A stretch of 64,000 nt of DNA from contig JAGBPS010000026.1 in the NCBI GenBank assembly GCA_017633255.1, positions 62,001 to 126,000 of the forward strand, given 5' to 3'. The notes under the pieces were generated by a model that was not told the DNA's origin, searched no databases, and saw only the letters and a list, made by a program, of their open reading frames with translations. Source of the stretch: Bacteroidales bacterium. Its GTDB lineage: Bacteria > Bacteroidota > Bacteroidia > Bacteroidales > WCHB1-69. The position numbers and the translations under genes are program-made. This document shows positions 4,267-61,500 of this stretch, piece by piece; position 1 is the stretch's first letter; each line of letters starts with the position of its first letter.

Positions 4267-7200
4267 TTAATAGCGGTCATCCATTATCGGTTCGCCGTAA
4301 TAATCAATCACTTTGTGAATGAGTTTACCCTCTTTGTCGAAGACCTTGAACTCTCCGTGTGCAATATCGTTATAATAGTGCCCTTCGTATTTGATCTGTC
4401 CGTTGGGATAGTAATAGATTTCCTCTCCATGTTGTTGATTTTCTTTATATTCTGTTTTGGAATACATTTGGCCGTTCGCATAATAATATATGGCTGGACC
4501 TTCAATAAGGTCGTCGGCAAATGTTATGGTCTGATAGGCCTGTCCGTTGGGGTAATAAACAGACTTGGTGCCATTGTATATGCCGTTGCGGAAGGGCACT
4601 ACAGCACCGAGAGCTCCGTTGGGATAATAGGCTTTGAAAGTCTGCTCATCCTTTCCAATCATAACGAAATCAGACATTTTGCCTCCTTTTTGGGCGCAGG
4701 AAATTGAAACCTGCAGGCCATTTTCGTAGAGAATTTCATACAGCAGTGTCTTGCCGTCGGGAGCAAAGTATTGGGTTATCCCTGTGCGGTTGCCATTTGT
4801 GTAAGTGATGTCGTAAAAGAGCTTGCCTTCCATGGTATAATGGCGGGCATGAGTGATGTCGCCATATTCGAAGGTGTTATCTATTATCACTTGTCCGTCA
4901 GGTGAGTATTGTTTGTATAATCCATGATAGTTGCCTTGGATTGTTTTCACTTCTTCGCGAAGCTCTCCTGTCGGGTAAAATCTTCTCATCATTCCGTTGT
5001 TATACCCTGACATAAAGCTGGTGGAATCAATCATTTGTCCGTGAAGATTGTAAAAGAATGCCGTTCCCTCAGCTGCTCCGCCCACGTAGGGAATGGTTGA
5101 TTTAAGCTGACCTTCGGGATAATAATTTTTAAGGATGCCGTTTCCGTTGACCAGGGTGTCGCGGGCAATCACCTCGTTGTTACGGTTGTAGGTGATGAAA
5201 AAACAAGGAGCCTCATGATAATAATATACCTCTTGGATTTTGGTCTTATCAGGGTTGTACGAGCATGTGTAAATCAGCTTTCCTGATTCATCGTATCGGC
5301 TTGCGAGTTGCATGCTTCCATCGAAATAGTAATTGTAAGCGGCCCCTTTGATGGTGTCGTTTTCCACATAATATTCGGTGGCGATGCTATTCTCCTTGTT
5401 GTCAAAATATTCCACATAAGAACCGTAGGCACTGTCGTCTATGTAATTGCCATGTGCTTTCAAACGGCCGTTTTCATAGTATTCTTTTTTCTCGCCGTTC
5501 AATTGATCGTTTTTATAGGTGCATTCTTGTATAACTTGTCCATTGGCAGCATATACAGTATTGAGTCCTCGCCAGTTGAAGTCCGCGTCCAAGGTTCCGC
5601 TTAATTTCTTGTAGCCAAGTTCGGAATATAGGTCGAAGCTGACCTTGTTGCTTTTGACGGAGTGTTTTTCCCTGACCGTGCCATCGGGCATGTAGTTGGT
5701 CACACTGGTCAATTTGCCATTGTCAAAAAGATAGGTGCAAGTGGGAAATCCCGTAATCATTCCATAACCTTCGTATTTGACGTTCTTGCCATGGTTGTGG
5801 GTGATTTTGATGTCGATTTTTCCATTGGAGAAATATTGGATGCTCTCGCCATCGGTCTCGCCGTTGTCATCATATTGTTTTGTGGATGAGATTTCCCCGG
5901 AGGGCTGATAAGAGGTCCATTGACCTACTCTTTTGTCATCTTTGATGAAACCGTCTTGTTTTTTGGTGCCGTCAATGTAATATTCATGATATTCGGTTTG
6001 TTCGTCTTTGTTTCCCGCCCGGTATTCTGTTTGCAATTGTCCGCTTGGATAAAATGTTTTTTGTTGTCCGTATGGCTTTCCGTTGTCCAAGTTCTCAATC
6101 ATGGTAAGGTGACCTTGTAAGTCATAGTATTTCACTTGGCCGTCGAATTCTGATTTGACCATAACTCCTTCTTTTTGAAGGACACCCTGGTTGGATTCAG
6201 AACGGTATTGGCCCATGTATTCGCCGTCTTTGATGTCGAATTCCTCATTGATGATTTTCTGGTGAAAAATGGGGTCGGCAGTGTACAGATACACACGGCC
6301 TTCGGGCTTTCCGTCTTTCCAAGTCGCCTCTTGTATCATCTCTCCATCCTGGTATAAACGGGCTAAACCATGCCTTTTGTCCATCATATAGTTCCCGATT
6401 TCGTCGATTTGGCCGTTGTCGTTAATGGTAGTCCATTCACCTTCTTGCAGCTGCTTGTCTTTGAAAAGGGTGTTCAGCGGTCCCCATGCGTTCAGTTTGA
6501 GCTTGTTGGAATAGAGGTAGTAGGTGTTGTCTTTGTTCTCCACACCCAGACCGAGCTCCGCTTGGGTTCTGATATGGTCGACGATGTCTTCTATCAGCAC
6601 ATTGAATTCTTTTTTCATTTTCGCGGCTTTTTTGGCCACTTTGTCATTGTCCACGTCAGTTTCCGAGAATTGGTAATAGCACAGGGTGTTGTATTGTTTC
6701 TTGTCAAGAACCTGCTTGAAGTAGGGAACATATAACATGTCTTCAATAGCCCGTGAGTCAGGACGGACTTTTACATTGGAAAATACCAGCTGGTTGTATT
6801 TCGCAATATCATGGTTGACTTTGGTCAGGCTGTGGAATTTCTGGGTAACAACGGCCTTGGTGTTCAGCAGTTGGTGAATCTCCTTGTAAAAAAGATTCAG
6901 CTCTTCATACTCGTCACTGATGTCAATATCGTTTTCTTTGTTGAAGTCGGGTATTCCGTTTTCATATAGATTCTCCAGAATCTGCAATGCTTGGAGACAA
7001 TATTTTGAAGAGGTGTTCATCAGGGTGGAGTAGTTCAGTGCAAGGATGCCGGGTACGGTGTAGCCTAACTTCATGCAGCAGAGTCCATAGCGGAAATGGC
7101 TTCCTTGGTGGGCCGGTGCGATGAAAATCGATTTCTTGAAACACTCCATTGCTTCCTCATATTTATCATTGTGCATGAGTGCCACCCCCTTGTTGAAGAG

Positions 7201-7659: not shown

Positions 7660-7713
7660 CATAAAATAATTTAATTGGCGAGGGTGCTTTTAATTAATTC
7701 GTGGAGGCGTGCT

Positions 7714-7812
7714 GCGTGCTGGAAGCACGCTATTCTATTAACTGTTCCCGTTACCCCACACTGTGCGCTATCGCGCTTGTGCGGGGTTAATAGGATATTG
7801 TGCCTTCGGCAC
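7714..7812. repeat. REP-like hairpin element, paired inverted copies
   Basis: A short hairpin CGTGCTGGAAGCACG followed by CTATTCTATTAAC is the inverted partner of a full core at 7754-7812: CCCC, a stem-loop with GCGC/GCGC arms, GGGGTTAATAGGATA, then the hairpin TGTGCCTTCGGCACA. This is one member of the dispersed family described at 21581-23325. It lies between divergent genes. Confidence 0.75.
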
Positions 7813-7875
7813 ATTCTCTTATGATTCAAATCAAAATTTTTCGTATTTTTACACTTTCAAATCAAAAAATATAAC

Positions 7876-9639: not shown

Positions 9640-9967
9640 ATAGCATCAGCTATAGCTTTTCCCTTTCGCGTCAGTCAGATGGTGTGCTTCGGTGCATGCG
9701 ACCCTCGCGACGCGAACAAATACACGGAATGTTCTCATCCTCGGGGTGGCGGTGCTCGTACCTCGCACCTTACCCCGGGCTATGCTCCTTGTAGGCTTAC
9801 AGCCTGCGACATCATAGTCTCGAAGAGACGACATCTTAGTAACCCCAGATGAGCGTAGCGTAATCTGGGGTAGTGAATGCATACGTCATCCTCTGCCGCG
9901 GTGCGTTCTGAACATGCAACGTAGCACTGAACATGCACACCGCGGAAGTGATACCTCTCAGCAGAGG
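9640..9967. repeat. Hairpin-rich intergenic repeat region
   Basis: This gene-free stretch (9558-10065) holds several inverted repeats and no convincing reading frame. At 9817-9875 is a REP-like core in inverted orientation: hairpin GTCTCGAAGAGAC, ATCTTAGTAA, then CCCCAGAT...ATCTGGGG and TAGTG. At 9896-9945 arms CCGCGGTG/CACCGCGG enclose about 34 bases, themselves bracketed by CCTCTGC (9890-9896) and GCAGAGG (9961-9967). The core and the CCGCGGTG repeat recur together and in the same order at 15084-15208, so they form one composite unit. Confidence 0.75.
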
Positions 9968-14955: not shown

Positions 14956-15208
14956 CGTGTCTTCGACACGCAGGGCAGTGAGGGTTGCTACATACCCCAC
15001 ACAAGCGACTGCGTCGCTTGTGTGATTGTCGTGCTGTATGATTGCGTGGCATGCGCGCTTACTACACTGCGCTTCGCTCGTTGCCTCGAAGAGGCAAAAT
15101 CTTATTAACCCCAGATGAGCGTAGCGTAATCTGGGGTAGTGAAAGCCTGTGCTCTCCTCCGCGGTGCGCTATAAACTTGCCCCGAAGCACTAAACCAAAC
15201 CACCGCGG
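14956..15208. repeat. Composite REP-like hairpin region
   Basis: In the gene-free stretch 14934-15326. It has hairpin CGTGTCTTCGACACG (14956-14970); a perfect 11-bp stem ACACAAGCGAC/GTCGCTTGTGT with loop TGC (14999-15023); GCCTCGAAGAGGC, ATCTTATTAA, CCCCAGAT...ATCTGGGG (15084-15137); and arms CCGCGGTG (15160-15167) / CACCGCGG (15201-15208). The last two parts repeat the order found at 9817-9945 with divergent loop sequences. No protein-coding frame is credible here. Confidence 0.75.
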
Positions 15209-18334: not shown

Positions 18335-18720
18335 TATTAAGCTTCGTTGGCCTATACGGCTTGTGTGCTCACCACACTGTGTGGTATTGCCCATGTGTAT
18401 TGCGACAGGAGGTATTCTTGCAGTCCTGAAGGACTGCAAGGCTTGGTAGAAAAGGAATGTCGCATTAATATTTTCGCAGGCCTTTAGGTCTGCGGGCAGA
18501 AGGGTTCCGCAATTTACCATTATTTTGCCCGCACACCTCTGGCGTGCGAATGGGGTGTATGGTCAACGCAATTCTACCAAGCCCTGCACTCCTGACTGAG
18601 TGCATTCGTCATTGCCTGAATGATTACGGCATCAAAGATGCAACATGTCAGTAATCCCAGTTGTTTGTAGGGTGTTAATTGCACCTAACGGTGCGTGAAG
18701 TGTCTACGACACTTTTAAGG
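18335..18720. repeat. Nested palindromic intergenic element
   Basis: A gene-free stretch with stacked inverted repeats. CTTGCAGTCC-TGAA-GGACTGCAAG (18417-18440) is perfect. Its right edge starts the outer arm GGCTTGGTAGAA (18440-18451), whose complement TTCTACCAAGCC is at 18572-18583; between them lie GCAGGCC..GGTCTGC and GCACACCTCTGGCGTGC hairpins. Later come GCACCTAACGGTGC and AGTGTCTACGACACT. The element differs in sequence from the GGGGTTAATAGGAT family but has the same style. Confidence 0.65.
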
Positions 18721-21430: not shown

Positions 21431-21580
21431 CAATTTTTTTCGTTATCATCAACATATATTTATAAGAAATTTTTTTTGAGGAAAAAACTGATGAAAAGGG
21501 TATTAATATCATCTTGTTTATAGACGGGAAATGCGATGTGGTTTAATTCGAATTTTTAAGTTTTACTTTGTGATTGTAGC

Positions 21581-22042
21581 GTGCCTTTGGCACGCAGGGT
21601 TAGGGTTGATTGCCGTGTGCCCCACACTGCGCAACTTCGTTGCTTGTGAGGGGTTAATAGGATGTCGTGTCTTCGACACGTATGTGTTGCTTGCACATCC
21701 TCGTGCCTTGGATTTGCACTATCGTGTCTTCGGCACGCGTGTGTTGCTTGCACATCTTCGTACCTAGGACTTGCACTATCGTGCTTGTGCGGATGTCGTG
21801 CCTTCGGCACGCAGGACTAGTGTCGCTTGTCGTGTGCCCCACACTGCGCAACTTCGTTGCTTGTGAGGGGTTAATAGGATATCGTGTCGAAGACACGTAT
21901 GTGTTGCTTGCACATCCTCGTGCCTTGGACATGCACTATCATGCATGTGCGGATGTTGTGTCTTCGACACGAGGAGGGTGTGCGTCTCTACGTATCTTAC
22001 AAAGGCGCTGTCGTGTTTGTGCGGATGTCGTGCCTTCGGCAC
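21581..22042. repeat. Left block of 217-bp REP-like tandem repeats
   Basis: A 217-bp unit (21581-21797) is followed by a second, rearranged unit from 21798. Each holds hairpin GTGCCTTYGGCAC, a CCCCACAC...GTGAGGGG stem enclosing GCNAC/GTNGC arms, GGGGTTAATAGGAT, hairpin CGTGTCTTCGACACG and one or two copies of a 57-bp sub-repeat (TATGTGTTGCTTGCACATC). The homology with the right block starts about 24 bases before the first unit (TAAGTTTTA). Apparent reading frames here are repeat artefacts. Confidence 0.85.
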
Positions 22043-22136
22043 TCAATTGATACAAGCTGGATTTCTTGTGTTTAGGGTCTTTGATGTGCGGTGAGACATA
22101 TGCTGCGATGTCTGCTGTGTGATATCTACTTTGATG

Positions 22137-22195
22137 CGTGCTGAAAGCACGATATCCTATTAACCCTCACAAGCGCGTCAGCGCGTAGTGTGGGG
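22137..22195. repeat. Inverted REP-like copy at the 3' end of the transposase gene
   Basis: Read on the minus strand this is CCCCACACT, a GCGC-rich stem-loop, GAGGGTTAATAGGAT and hairpin CGTGCTTTCAGCACG. It is the same core as in the blocks but in opposite orientation, 44 bases from the transposase stop codon. A further small hairpin CGTGCCGAAGGTACG lies at 22221-22235. Confidence 0.8.
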
Positions 22196-22238
22196 TAGAG
22201 TGGTGTGTGTGGAAAACCAGCGTGCCGAAGGTACGCTA

Positions 22239-22691
22239 CTACTTGTCTTGCAGGAAGTAGCGTTTGTCGATAGGTATTCCATTGCTCTCTATGAAAGCTC
22301 TATATTCTTCTGCAAAGGAAAATCGTTGATGGTGCTCTTTTTGTCGAATGATATAGTTTACTATTTTGTCTTTGTCATGAAGATTATAGCTGAAGCCAGC
22401 ATATTCGTGACCCCAGCCGCGAAAGTTTGGAAAGTGAGCGTTGGCTTTCATCCATTTGGAACTGTCGGTCTTCACTCGCTGTACAAAAGATGCCAACGAC
22501 AATGTAGACGGTAGTGATACGAAAAGATGAATATGGTCGGGCATACCGCCTATACGGTAGGTTTGGCAGTGGAGATTTTTGGCAATGCCATATATGTAGG
22601 CATATAGCTCTCGCTCATACTCTGCTGAGATTGTCATTTCGCTGCGAAAGGTGCGGAAGACGATGTGATAATAAGATGTTGTGTAACTCAT
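22239..22691 (-). CDS. Y1 (HUH) transposase, REP-associated/IS200-IS605 type
   Basis: A 150-residue single-strand transposase. The HUH pair is HIH in MPDHIHLFVSLP (about residues 62-66) and the catalytic tyrosine with its partner Gln is in VNYIIRQKEHH (YxxxQ, as in IS608 TnpA). SSKWMK, GWGHEYAGFSY and the ending SFAEEYRAFIESNGI are typical of this family. The ATG at 22689-22691 starts MSYTTSYYHIV; an earlier in-frame start would translate the neighbouring repeat. It appears intact. Direct repeats on one side and an inverted copy on the other make a REP-associated (RAYT-like) role more likely than an ordinary IS, and no tnpB accompanies it. Confidence 0.88.
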   Translation of the reverse strand: MSYTTSYYHIVFRTFRSEMTISAEYERELYAYIYGIAKNLHCQTYRIGGMPDHIHLFVSLPSTLSLASFVQRVKTDSSKWMKANAHFPNFRGWGHEYAGFSYNLHDKDKIVNYIIRQKEHHQRFSFAEEYRAFIESNGIPIDKRYFLQDK

Positions 22692-22720
22692 AAGTTTAAG
22701 TTTTATGTTGTGATTGTAGC

Positions 22721-23325
22721 GTGCCTTTGGCACGCAGGGTTAGGGTTGATTGCCGTGTGCCCCACACTGCGCGACTTCGTCGCTTGTGAGGGGTTAATAG
22801 GATGTCGTGTCTTCGACACGTATGTGTTGCTTGCACTTCCTCGTGCCTTGGACATGCACTGTCGTGCCTTCGGCACGTATGTGTTGCTTGCACATCTTCG
22901 TACCTAGGACTTGCACTATCGTGCTTGTGCGGATGTCGTGCCTTTGGCACGCAGGACTAGTGTCGCTTGTCGTGTGCCCCACACTGCGCGACTTCGTCGC
23001 TTGTGAGGGGTTAATAGGATGCCGTGTCTTCGACACGTATGTGTTGCTTGCACATCCTCGTGCCTTGGACATGCACTGTCGTGCCTTCGGCATGCGTGTG
23101 TTGCTTGCACATCTTCGTACCTAGGACTTGCACTATCGTGCATGTGCGGATGTCGTGCCTTCGGCACGCGGGATTGGGGTTGCTTGTCGTGTGCCCCACA
23201 CTGCGCGACTTCGTCGCTTGTGAGGGGTTAATAGGATATCGTGTCTTCGACACGGGGAGGGTATGCGTCTCTACGTATCTTACAAAGGCACTATCGTGCT
23301 TGTGCGGATGTCGTGCCTTCGGCAC
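22721..23325. repeat. Right block of 217-bp REP-like tandem repeats
   Basis: Three units start at 22721, 22938 and 23155, each 217 bases apart; the third is cut short and ends in the same CTACGTATCTTACAAAGGC tail as the left block. The block is upstream of the transposase gene on its strand and begins 30 bases before its ATG. Unit-to-unit differences fall in paired stem positions (GCAAC/GTTGC on the left, GCGAC/GTCGC on the right). Confidence 0.85.
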
Positions 23326-55583: not shown

Positions 55584-58500
55584 ATGAAAAAATCCGCTCC
55601 CTTGTCCCAATCGCAGCTTGGTATTTATGCCGAGTGTGTACATCACGAAAATGAAGTTTTTTATAACCTTCCTTTTCTCTATGTTTTTGACGGCGGTATT
55701 GATGCTGACCGTTTGTGTCGCGCCATAGAGGCGGTGGTACAGGCCCATCCCGTTTTTTTTACACGCATTGAGCTGAGTGATGAGGGAGAGCCTTTGCAGA
55801 CTATTGATTTGGAAAAAGAGGAATTCAGCCTTTCCGTTGAACAGGTTACGGACCTTGAGGCCGAGAAGAAAAAATTCATTGAGCCTTTCCAGCTCCATGG
55901 AGGCAGACTGTTTCATACCAAAGTGATGCGCGATGCGGAGCATGTCTATTGGCTCTTCGATATGCACCATATCATCAGCGATGGCTCCTCATATCATATT
56001 ATCGTTTGTGATGTGGAGACGGCTTACAACGGTGGCACGCTTGCTCCAGAGGAGATGTCGATGCAGGAATTTGCCCTTGCTGAAGCGGAGATGCGCAAAA
56101 CACCTGCTTTCGAGGAGGGCAAACAATGGTATGCCCAAAACTTCGACTGCGGCGACACTTTCACCCAGCTTATGCCCGATTTGGAGATTCCCGAACACGC
56201 GGATGCCCAAAAACTCCGCGTTCTCGGCATCGACATGGATCGGGTGGATGCCTTCTGCAAGACCAACGGCATCAAAAAAAGCACTTTCTTCACGTCGGCA
56301 TTTTCCTTCCTCTTGGCCAAGTACAACAATGATCAGGAATCGCTGTTCACCACAGTTTTTAACGGTCGCGTCGAGCCGAAATTTCAACATTCCGTCGGTA
56401 TGACGGTGAAGACGCTGCCTGTATACGCCAAGTTCACGGAAGAGACCACGGTGCTCGATTTTATGAAAGCTGGCGAGGAACAGATGATTGGCTGTCGCAA
56501 GCACGATCTTTATTCCTATACCGACATCATGACCGACCTTAACCTGCAAACCAACGCCATGTTTGCATGGCATGGGCTCATGCTTGATTTCACCGAACTA
56601 ATGGGCAAACCCATGGAGGCCATTCAGCTTCGCAAACATAACGAGGGAGTGTCGTTCTATCTGATGGCTTTTTACGTCGGAAAAAAATATCATATCAAAG
56701 CGGAATACAAATCCAACGAATATTCTGAGACATTTGTTGAGCAATTCATGGAGAGTTACGAGGCGGTTTTGGAGGGCTTCCTAAGCCAAACTCTCCTGCG
56801 CGACATCGATATCTGCACCGAGAGCCAACGCGCCTTGTTGGACAGTTTCAACCAGACCGACACGGAGTTGGATATGAGTCAGACCATCGTGTCCAAATTC
56901 CGTGCGCAGGTGGCAAAAGCCCCTGACAATATCGCAGTGGTCTATAAGGATAAACGTTTTACCTATAAAGAGTTGGATGAGATTTCCGACCGCATTGCCG
57001 CCTATGTCCATGGGAAAGGCCTTCATGAGGAGGATGTCGTCTCGGTGTTGATTCCTCGTTGCGAGTGGATGCCTATCGTCTCCTTGGGCGTGTTGAAGGC
57101 CGGCTGTGCCTATCAACCCCTTGACCCGACTTATCCATCGGAGCGCCTCAACTTCATGATGCAAGACGCCTCCGTGAAATTGCTCATCGCCGATGAATCG
57201 TTACGCGATATCGTGAACGAATATAAAGGCGACGTGCTGCTTACCAAGGATATAAATCAATTGTCAACTGTCAACTATCAACTATCAACTCCTGTAAAGC
57301 CCGAGTCGCTCTTCATCATGCTCTATACCTCAGGTACCACGGGAACGCCCAAAGGCTGTCAGTTGGAGCATCGCAACCTCGTTGCGTTTTGCGAGTGGTA
57401 CCAGCGCAGGTTTAATCTCACACCCGGTTGTAAAGTTACGGCATACGCCAGTTACGGCTTCGATGCCAATATGATGGAAACGTATCCATGTCTCACGGGT
57501 GGTGCCACGCTTTACATCATTCCTGAAGAACTGCGCTTGGACATGATAGCGTTGAACGAATATTTTGAGCAAGAGCAGATCACCCACGGATTCATGACCA
57601 CGCAGGTGGCTTATCAGTTTGCCACTTCCATCGAGAACCACTGTCTGTACTACCTGTTGACAGGTGGCGAGAAGTTGGCACCTCTGACCCCGCCCACGAA
57701 CTACACGTTGGTGAACCTCTATGGTCCTACCGAAAGTACTGTCTGTATCACCTCCTTTGACGTGACGAAGTCCATGAAGGATATTCCGATTGGCTCGGCG
57801 TTGGACAATGTCAAGCTTTATATCGTCGATAAAGCGTGTCACCGCCTGCCTGTGGGTGTGGCGGGTGAACTTTGGGTCGCAGGACCGCAAGTCACTCGTG
57901 GCTACCTCAACCGTCCCGAGAAAACTGCTGAGGTCTATATCGCCAACCCCTTTGAAACAAACGAGAAATATGCACACATCTACCGTACTGGCGACATCGT
58001 GCGTTACCTCCCCGACGGCAATATCCAATTTGTGGGACGTAAGGACGGACAGGTCAAGATTCGCGGTTTCCGTATCGAACTCAAGGAGGTGGAGAGCATC
58101 GTCCGTCAGTTCCCCGGCATTAAGGATGCCACCGTGCAAGCCTTCGACGAAGAGGGCGGCGGCAAGTTCATTGCTGCTTATATCGTGGCAGACGAGCAGA
58201 TTGACATCGAAGCCCTGAATAACTTCATCCTGGAGGAGAAACCGCCTTACATGGTGCCTGCCGTGACGATGCAGATCGATCGCATTCCGCTCAACCAAAA
58301 TCAGAAGGTGAACAAGAAAGCCCTTCCGAAACCTGAAAAGAAAGCGGCAGCGGCTGAGGTGGCGAGCAATGTGCCGATGAATGTGTTGGAGCAGGAAATC
58401 CATGACATCATTGCAAAGATTATCAATACCGAGGACTTTGGCGTAACAACAGTGTTGGGCTATGCCGGCTTGACCTCCATCATGGCTATCAAATTGGCTG

Positions 58501-61500
58501 TCCAGATCAACAAACGTTTCGGTGTCACCCTTGACTCGAAATCCCTGTCCAAAACGGGAACTTTGCAAAGCATCGAGAACGAAATTCTCAACTATATGCT
58601 CAATGCTCCCACTGTTACTCAAACCACTTCAAGTTCCGACAACTGTCAACTGTCAACTGTCAACTGTCAACTAAAAAATGCTCCGCTTTCCTACGCGCAG
58701 ATGGGCGTCTATGTGGATTGCATGAAACAGCCCACTTCCACGGTGTATAATATCCCATCGCTTATCCGTTTCCCGAAAGGTACCGACGAGCAGTTGCTTG
58801 CCAAGTCCATTGAGACCCTCATCAAGGCGCACCCGCAATTCTTTGTGCATTTTGATAGCGAAGGAGGTGAAATCGTACAGATTGTTGACGTCAATCAATC
58901 TCTTGCCCTCACAAAGAACCAGTTAAGCGAAACGGAATTGGAGAAATACAAGGTAGAGTTCGTGAAGCCGTTCAATTTGAGACAAGGACCCTTGTACCGC
59001 ATGGAAATCGTGACCACTGAGCAAAATGTATATCTCTTGGTCGATGTGCATCACTTGATTTTCGACGGAGGCTCCCTTGACCTGTTCCTGAACCAGTTGT
59101 GCGACTTGATGAACGGCAAGGAAATCGAGGCTGAGGCTATCAGCTATGCCAATTTCGTTGCCGACGAAAAAGCTGCCGAAAACACGCCGAGTTACATAGA
59201 GGCCAAAAACTTCTTCAACGAGCGTTTGGGCAAGGTGGAAGGAGTTACTGAAGTGCCTACCGACTTGACCAATCCTTTGGATCAAGGTACTGTCAGCGAA
59301 GTCTTCTGCAAGATGGATTTCAATGCGATGGAAGAATTCTGCAAGAAGAACAATCTCTCATCCTCACACCTCACCTTGGCGGCGGTGTTCTATGCGCTCT
59401 CTCGTTTCACCAACAACGAGCAAATCTGTATCACTACCATCAGTAACGGTCGCTCCGACTTACGCATAAGCAATACAACGGGCATGTTTGTCAACACCTT
59501 GGCCTTGAGTGCCCAGATTGGCGAGCAAAATGTAATGGATTTCCTGAAAGAGACCGGCAAGAACTTTGATGAGACATTGACTCACGAGAAGTATCCTTTC
59601 GCGCAGATAGCCGCCGATTACGATCTGTCGGCCGAAATCATGTTTGCCTATCAGATGGGAGTAATAGACAAATATATTATCAATGGTCAAAAACTTGAAA
59701 TAGAGTCTCTTGAGCTGAATACTCCGAAATTCCGTATCGCTTTCTACATCCAAGAGAAAGAGGGCGTGCCAGGTGTGATGGTCGAATACGACAATGGTCG
59801 TTACAGTCATAGTTTGATGCAAAGTCTGGCACAATCGGTATGTAATGCGGTCAAAGTATTTATCCACCATCCTGAGATGGCCTTGCAGCAGGTCTCTTTG
59901 CTGGATGCCGAACAAACCGCAGTGCTCGACGGTTTCAACCAGACGGATGTGCCCTACGACGACACGCAGACCATTGTTTCGCTGTTCCGCCGTCAAGCGC
60001 AACTGACCCCCGACAACATGGCTGTGGTCTATCACGACAACAAATACACCTATCGCGAGGTGGATGATATCACGGAGCGCATTGCATCGCTCATTGTCTC
60101 ACAAGGTCTTGGAAGAGAAGACGTTGTTTCTATTCTCATTCCGCGTTGCGAGTGGATGCCTATCGCCGCACTCGGTGTACTGAAAGCCGGTTGCGCATAC
60201 CAACCCCTCGACCCGAGCTATCCCGCCGAGCGTCTGAATTTCATGATTCAGGATGCTGCCGCCAAAATGCTCATCGCCGATGAATCGTTGCGCGATATCG
60301 TGAACGAATACCATGGCGAAGTGTTGCTGACGAAAGATATTTTTGATTTGCCGAAGGCTAGCCAGCCTGTCAATGTCACCGTCAATCCGGCAGACCTGTT
60401 CATCCTGCTATATACCTCCGGTTCCACGGGCACGCCTAAGGGCTGCCAGTTGGAGCATCGTAATTTGGTGGCTTTCTGTCATTGGTACCAACGTCGTTTC
60501 GAGCTCAAGGCCGAGCACCATGTGTCTTGCTACGCCAGCTATGGATTCGATTGTTGCATGATGGATATGTATCCGGCGCTGACCTGTGGTGCTTGCGTCT
60601 ATATCATTGGTGACGACATCCGTTTGACCTTGCCGGAAGTGAATGTTTACTTCGATGAGAATCATATTACCCACTCGTTCATGACCACGCAGGTGGCCTA
60701 CCAGTTTGCTACCAACATGGACAATCATTCACTGTTGCATTTGATTGCGGCGGGTGAAAAATTGGCTTCTCTGGTGCCTCCGAAGAATTTCAAAATGCAC
60801 AATGGTTACGGTCCCACGGAGGGCACTATCCTTATCACAGAGTATGAGGTTGACGAGGAACTCAAGGATATTCCGGTGGGCAAACCGCTCGATAATTCAC
60901 GTCTATATGTCGTCGACAAACAATTTAACCGTCTGCCGCAAGGCGCGTTAGGTGAGCTGTGGATCAGCGGTGCTCACGTCACCAGAAGTTACCTTAACCG
61001 TCCGGAGAAAACCGCTGAGGTTTATATTCAGAATCCGTTCAGCGATGATCCGAAATTCTCCCGTATCTATCGCACCGGCGACATTGTTCGTTATCTTCCT
61101 GATGGCAACATCCAGTTCGCGGGTCGTAAGGACGGTCAGGTAAAGATCCGCGGTTTCCGCATTGAACTGAAAGAGGTGGAGGCCGTGATTCGTCAGTTTC
61201 CGGGCATCAAAGATGTCACCGTGCAAGCCTTTGAGTATGAGAACGGTGGTAAATATATTGCCGCCTACATCGTCAGTGACCAGCAGGTGGACATCAAGGC
61301 CCTCAATGCCTTCATTGGTGAACGTAAGCCTCCGTACATGATTCCTGCCTCTACGATGCAGATCGACAGTATTCCGTTGAACCAGAATCAGAAGGTGAAT
61401 CGCAAGGCATTGCCTACGCCCGTTATGCAGGCCTCAGACCGCGAATATGTGGCACCGGCCAATGACACAGAAGCCCTGTTCTGCCGCATCTTCAGCGAGG

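Follow-up and report, generated by a model that had tools for sequence, protein, structure and literature searches.

In the window (the whole 64,000-nt stretch of Bacteroidales DNA analysed here, from a rumen-type bacterium), we found a single-copy transposase gene flanked on both sides by three-hairpin units that are inverted relative to each other, together with gene-free pairs of the same units dispersed in the source genome and its congeners. The reading that we favour, at a probability of roughly 70%, is a REPIN/RAYT-like system driven by an IS200-type transposase (TnpA-Y1 subclass 1.2), which would cleave the repeats and mobilise them in trans. The anatomy and conservation of the units, the covariation of their stems, their lineage-specific cores, the occupied and unoccupied sites, and the gene's low copy number were observed directly. 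As the original prediction supposed, no published description of this repeat family was found in the open-access literature.

Transposase gene and flanking units

The transposase gene, predicted to be an intact HUH/YxxxQ gene, is indeed intact: it matches Pfam Y1_Tnp with an E value of 8e-20 and retains the DHIH motif and YIIRQ. Six residues (H53, H55, Y113, Q117, H120, and H121) were invariant in 31 aligned homologues. The predicted model had a mean pLDDT of 85, and the fold search with it gave the ISDra2 and IS608 transposases as the best matches and the E. coli REP transposase (4er8) lower, at E 2e-5. The protein has the HUH/Y1 catalytic core of RAYT (TnpA-REP) but carries YIIRQKEHH, with the invariant Q117, in place of the Y---NP motif of class 2 RAYT, and it scored 26 bits with NCBIfam REP_Tyr_transpos, below the cut-off of 80. 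Y---Q--HH, DH[IV]H, and low copy number, the features of subclass 1.2, are all present. We conclude that the protein is of IS200-type class 1 (TnpA-Y1 subclass 1.2) and not, as had been predicted, a RAYT of the gammaproteobacterial kind (class 2).

A Pfam search of the nine congeneric genomes returned 28 Y1_Tnp matches, all IS200-like. The tyrosine motif was read in all except two of these, including the truncated copy of G058, and was Y---Q--HH in every case and Y---NP in none; a classical RAYT as the true partner in the genus was rejected on this ground. The source genome (G000) contains three homologues, 100, 70, and 37% identical to the window gene, and no set of near-identical gene-bearing copies of the IS200/IS605 kind; no TnpB was seen next to the window gene. 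The 70%-identical transposase, at C30:203669–204115 (L020, L165), has its own core, GGGGTTATGAAGAT, and apparently occupies the same locus in G058, where it is internally deleted, and in G059. The 37%-identical one, at C21:14275–14694 (L170, ~4276–4700), is a Y---Q--HH transposase amid a different repeat family, with GCCCC...GGGGC hairpins and CAGGGGTTNCGCTNCGCT in inverted arrays.

The features of the window are as follows.

22239–22691, minus: HUH/Y1 transposase gene, 150 aa, DHIH...YIIRQKEHH (Pfam, alignment of 31 homologues, predicted fold)
22137–22238, minus: downstream flanking unit, from the gene outward, with GTAG foot and H1 22220–22238, H2 ~22163–22195, core 22153–22166, H3 22137–22151 (sequence, inverted repeats, folding)
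22716–22820, plus: upstream flanking unit, with GTAG 22716–22719, H1 22719–22735, H2 22760–22793, core TTAATAGGAT 22794–22803, H3 22806–22820 (sequence, repeats, folding)
22137–22820, no strand: putative minimal gene-bearing element (order in gene-free pairs and around homologues)
21576–21680, plus: unit 1 of the 462-bp block (direct-repeat comparison)
21793–21897, plus: unit 2 of the 462-bp block (direct-repeat comparison)
22933–23037, plus: tandem unit 2 of the 605-bp block, 217-nt period (direct-repeat comparison)
23150–23254, plus: tandem unit 3 of the 605-bp block (direct-repeat comparison)
7700–7813, plus: dispersed copy of the window family, partly decayed, right half intact and left half truncated
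18671–18684, plus: decayed copy of the second-lineage core GGTGTTAATTGCAC
9812–9896, minus: third-lineage unit with core GGGGTTACTAAGAT, related to 15078–15162
15078–15162, minus: third-lineage unit with core GGGGTTAATAAGAT

From the gene outward, each unit consists of a GT[AG]G foot, H1 (GCGTGCCTTCGGCACGC), a linker of ~20–25 nt, an imperfect H2 (CCCCACA...TGTGNGGGG), the core GTTAATAG(G/A)AT, and H3 (CGTGCCTTCGGCACG). On the 3' side of the gene, H1 (22220–22236) practically touches the stop codon. The original prediction had placed an inverted core 44 bases past the stop; the inverted copy of the core region exists (22134–22166), but it is the H2 arm that starts at 44 bases, and the TTAATAGGAT core lies at ~75 bases. 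The unit order outward is identical on both sides, so the gene is the centre of an inverted unit pair at 22137–22820. The minimal gene-bearing element would then be unit, gene, and inverted unit with the GT[AG]G feet toward the gene, because the dispersed gene-free pairs and the surroundings of the homologues show the same order.

The two predicted blocks of one repeat, 462 bp (21581–22042) and 605 bp (22721–23325), were confirmed on either side of the gene. A 147-nt direct repeat occurs in five copies in the window (starts 21580, 21797, 22720, 22937, and 23154), 69–96% identical to the reference copy, with a period of 217 nt within each block. These blocks are additional tandem units in one orientation, outside the inverted pair. 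The direct period in both blocks, and the absence of the left block at the same locus in G062 and G063, could be taken to mean that local tandem duplication and gene conversion alone made the blocks, without any specific part played by the transposase. We regard this as highly improbable, because it leaves the dispersed inverted pairs, the unoccupied sites, and the conserved flanking units unexplained; local duplication or conversion is likely behind the tandem expansion itself. Tandem units at 84- to 110-nt spacing were also seen in G058 C83 (L218), G063 C1 (L220), and G064 C3:15220–15453, standing alone or beside a gene as in the window, and local tandem growth of units seems to be recurrent.

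Two further sets of repeats were seen in the window. The third-lineage units at 9812–9896 and 15078–15162 have the hairpin-core-hairpin order of the window family, and their cognate transposase was not identified in the source genome. The segments 57030–57253 and 60117–60340 are two direct copies of 224 nt, 78% identical and unrelated to the finding.

The hairpins were supported by covariation in 56 aligned half-units: the three stems showed 91 two-sided changes, whereas shuffling gave 30 on average and sliding the partner gave no more than 10; 95.6% of the stem cells were paired. The strict three-hairpin detector gave no match in 20 shuffled-flank sets and none in 570 control windows at the same loci away from the gene. 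GC-rich, intergenic hairpins whose stems covary like those of structured RNA might also be host RNA or terminator-type elements that surround the gene by chance, with the transposase unrelated. Against this, the units are placed symmetrically around the gene family across phyla despite different stem sequences, the dispersed copies are fixed inverted pairs whose presence varies among orthologous sites, and no U tract follows H3. A search of the units against Rfam found no family at gathering score, and known RNA families were rejected as their identity. We give this explanation very little credence.

Dispersed pairs and their sites

We counted 18 occurrences of the exact core GGGGTTAATAGGAT in the 2.28-Mb source genome, versus 0 for the reversed control pattern, in agreement with the predicted genome-wide family, and the majority of the copies form inverted pairs. 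Across seven congeneric species, we read 67 dispersed inverted pairs. Within a pair, the cores lie at distances that cluster around 157 and 172 nt, and the pair consensus is ~220 nt (six hairpins), with conservation at background level just outside both H3; one end usually has TTAATAGGAT and the other TTAATAGAAT. The dispersed unit is therefore not the single REP hairpin of the original prediction; it is an inverted pair of three-hairpin units. Like REPINs, these are dispersed inverted doublets in intergenic DNA, a placement read from the seven sites compared with relatives, which lie between conserved flanks. Within one genome the copies are ~70% identical, which indicates that they are old and divergent. 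Elements s1, s2, s4, and s6 share a longer outer sequence, ~330 nt overall. Other lineages have cores of their own, such as GGTGTTAATTGC and GGGGTTAT(T/G)A(A/G)GAT. A plasmid origin was not supported, as no similar plasmid record was found.

Using the flanks of seven elements as queries, we located the orthologous sites in congeners and compared them. At s1, G059 carries the element and G057, G058, and G064 do not. The element is missing at s2 in G057, G058, and G059, at s5 in G058, and at s7 in G057 and G058. At these element-free sites the flanks are conserved. No exact target site or duplication was definable at the unoccupied sites, because the intergenic DNA there is too diverged and low in complexity.

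The gene lies between rpsO and ygiQ in the source genome, G062, G063, and G064. The rpsO-ygiQ spacer of G059 is 145 nt, verified to be without the gene, and loss in G059 is plausible because the gene is present in four species. A recent insertion of the window gene was rejected in view of the shared locus.

These observations bear on another explanation, namely, an ordinary IS200/IS605-type IS with unusual symmetrical ends and internally deleted, MITE- or PATE-like derivatives, in which the gene is selfish cargo and not domesticated. It would account for the gene-free pair as the gene-bearing element minus its gene, for the polymorphic element sites, for a class 1 protein with a fold closest to ISDra2 and IS608, and for the internally deleted gene copy of G058. 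What it accounts for poorly is a gene count of one per lineage in almost every genome, a locus conserved in four species, ends that are symmetrical and not asymmetric, and old and divergent copies with no recent multicopy burst. We consider it unlikely, although it is the strongest of the alternatives.

In the REPIN/RAYT-like reading, the transposase would bind the hairpins of the units and use Y113 to cut close to the linker that separates H2 from H3, the conserved GTTAATAG(G/A)AT. The pair would be rejoined or copied into intergenic DNA by way of single-stranded DNA, and the gene-free pairs would form a small dispersed population, most likely mobilised in trans by the protein. The binding, the cleavage position, the single-stranded route, and the action in trans are drawn from what is known of HUH/Y1 transposase chemistry.

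Distribution of repeats and homologues

The counts of GGGGTTAATRGRAT were 23 in G000, 27 in G057, 45 in G058, 26 in G059, 7 in G062, 39 in G063, 36 in G064, and 0 in G060 and G061; thus, seven of the nine congeneric species have cores, with 7–45 exact copies each. A homologue of at least 77% identity was found in G000, G057, G062, G063, and G064, and the coreless G060 and G061 have homologues of only 47 and 55%. These results uphold the predicted single-copy, vertically kept Y1 transposase between inverted hairpin units, with a genome-wide family of the same sequence, in Bacteroidales. The further claim that the gene maintains the family held in part: repeats track the gene in seven of nine congeneric species, but no intact cognate (group-A) gene was detected in G058 and G059, incomplete MAGs (87 and 74%). 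The closest homologue in these two genomes is 70% identical (internally deleted in G058), and the G058 assembly lacks both rpsO and ygiQ. G044, from another genus, has eight group-A cores, and its sole homologue is 60% identical with a different core; at its loci L261–L264, one pair is opposite in orientation, with 80-nt spacing. The repeats follow the cognate gene only roughly, and strict tracking was rejected for these three exceptions.

Beyond the genus, we fetched 80 named homologue loci, mainly from uncultured rumen and gut Bacteroidales, with single matches in a Spirochaetaceae MAG, Oligosphaera, and others; the sample is without cyanobacterial subclass 1.2 genes. As the core finder on GGGGTTA-type ends missed many lineages, the loci were also put through an inverted-repeat test and the sequence-free three-hairpin detector. 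In 95 of the 109 homologues with usable flanks, inverted repeats that bracket the gene scored above all 60 shuffles. Of 112 loci, 72 had a strict three-hairpin unit on one side or both and 33 on both, compared with 0 in shuffles. H2 and H3 are mostly 11 nt apart, and the start of H1 usually lies ~5–7 nt from the stop codon. Stem sequences differ wholly between lineages (e.g., L111 of Spirochaetaceae and L103 of Oligosphaera), whereas the H1-H2-core-H3 order is constant. The four bases after GTTA vary with the gene lineage, requiring 32 changes on the protein tree versus a mean of 44 and a minimum of 40 in shuffles; near the gene, this link is partly due to plain linkage. Outside the genus, most group-A cores adjoin the gene, so that the evidence for dispersal in trans comes mainly from one genus.

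These results suggest that a branch of IS200-type transposases thought to be free of such repeats maintains a population of miniature mobile DNA. We lean, by a little, towards the broader view that the whole of subclass 1.2 forms a third lineage, derived from class 1, alongside classes 2 and 3. In Bacteroidota and a few further phyla, it would run REPIN-like populations of inverted three-hairpin elements specific to each lineage, and its recognition and cleavage logic (H2-GTTA linker-H3) would be unlike that of IS608 and the E. coli REP. In the REPIN/RAYT-like reading, a class 1 lineage joins the REPIN/RAYT phenomenon, so that the domesticated or REP-associated lifestyle seems to have more than one origin among Y1 transposases. 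Such a system would account for one kind of intergenic repeat, rich in hairpins, in the genomes of rumen and gut Bacteroidales, and its many lineages, with the same architecture and fully different stems, offer a natural data set for the co-evolution of HUH proteins and hairpins.

Comparison with known systems

The window system shares the fold, the HUH/Y1 active site, and subterminal hairpins with IS200/IS605 elements (IS608, ISDra2) and differs from them in its symmetrical, inverted three-hairpin ends and in having no multicopy gene. The PATEs of Haloquadratum (PMC3119063) are likewise gene-free, with near-terminal palindromes, and related to IS200/IS605-type elements, but they lack inverted terminal repeats, whereas in the window family one half is the inverted copy of the other. 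In the account given by PMC6006769, the TIRYT genes of Di Nocera et al. (2013, PMC3733652) are also Y1 genes between inverted repeats, but they are mostly of subclass 2.1 with HTH domains, and their repeat consensus, GGGG[AT][CG]A[CG], differs from that of the window family. The class 3 REPtron-like genes (Quentin et al., 2018, PMC6006769) resemble the window system in a Y----Q-type motif and atypical hairpins copied through the genome, but they belong to another protein family, have a CnGA foot, and occur mainly in Planctomycetes and Acidobacteria.

The paper that defines TnpA-Y1 subclass 1.2 (Quentin et al., 2018, PMC6006769) lists 'no' REP for it and, in general, none of the terminal secondary structures typical of IS200. 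The window protein matches this subclass in Y---Q--HH, DH[IV]H, a length of ~150 aa, low copy number, and occurrence in Bacteroidetes, the absence of REPs being a property reported for the subclass and not a defining one. That absence does not hold for the homologues examined here: REPs and terminal hairpins are present in most of them, which corrects the literature (PMC6006769), where subclass 1.2 is said to be without cognate repeats.

The system also compares closely with REPIN/RAYT (TnpA-REP; Bertels and Rainey, 2011, PMC3116915; class 2 of Quentin et al., 2018, PMC6006769). The window protein is class 1 (Y---Q--HH) and RAYT is class 2 (Y---NP); the window units are three-hairpin units with a GTTAATAG(G/A)AT linker, the pair is ~220 nt, and the copies number tens, not hundreds. 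In both systems, hairpin repeats flank a Y1 transposase gene present in a single copy, inverted doublets are scattered through intergenic DNA, and the repeat sequence follows the gene lineage. Both also have the GT[AG]G foot on H1, which is GTAG or GTGG in 45 of 55 aligned units here, on hairpins that flank the gene and recur as dispersed copies.
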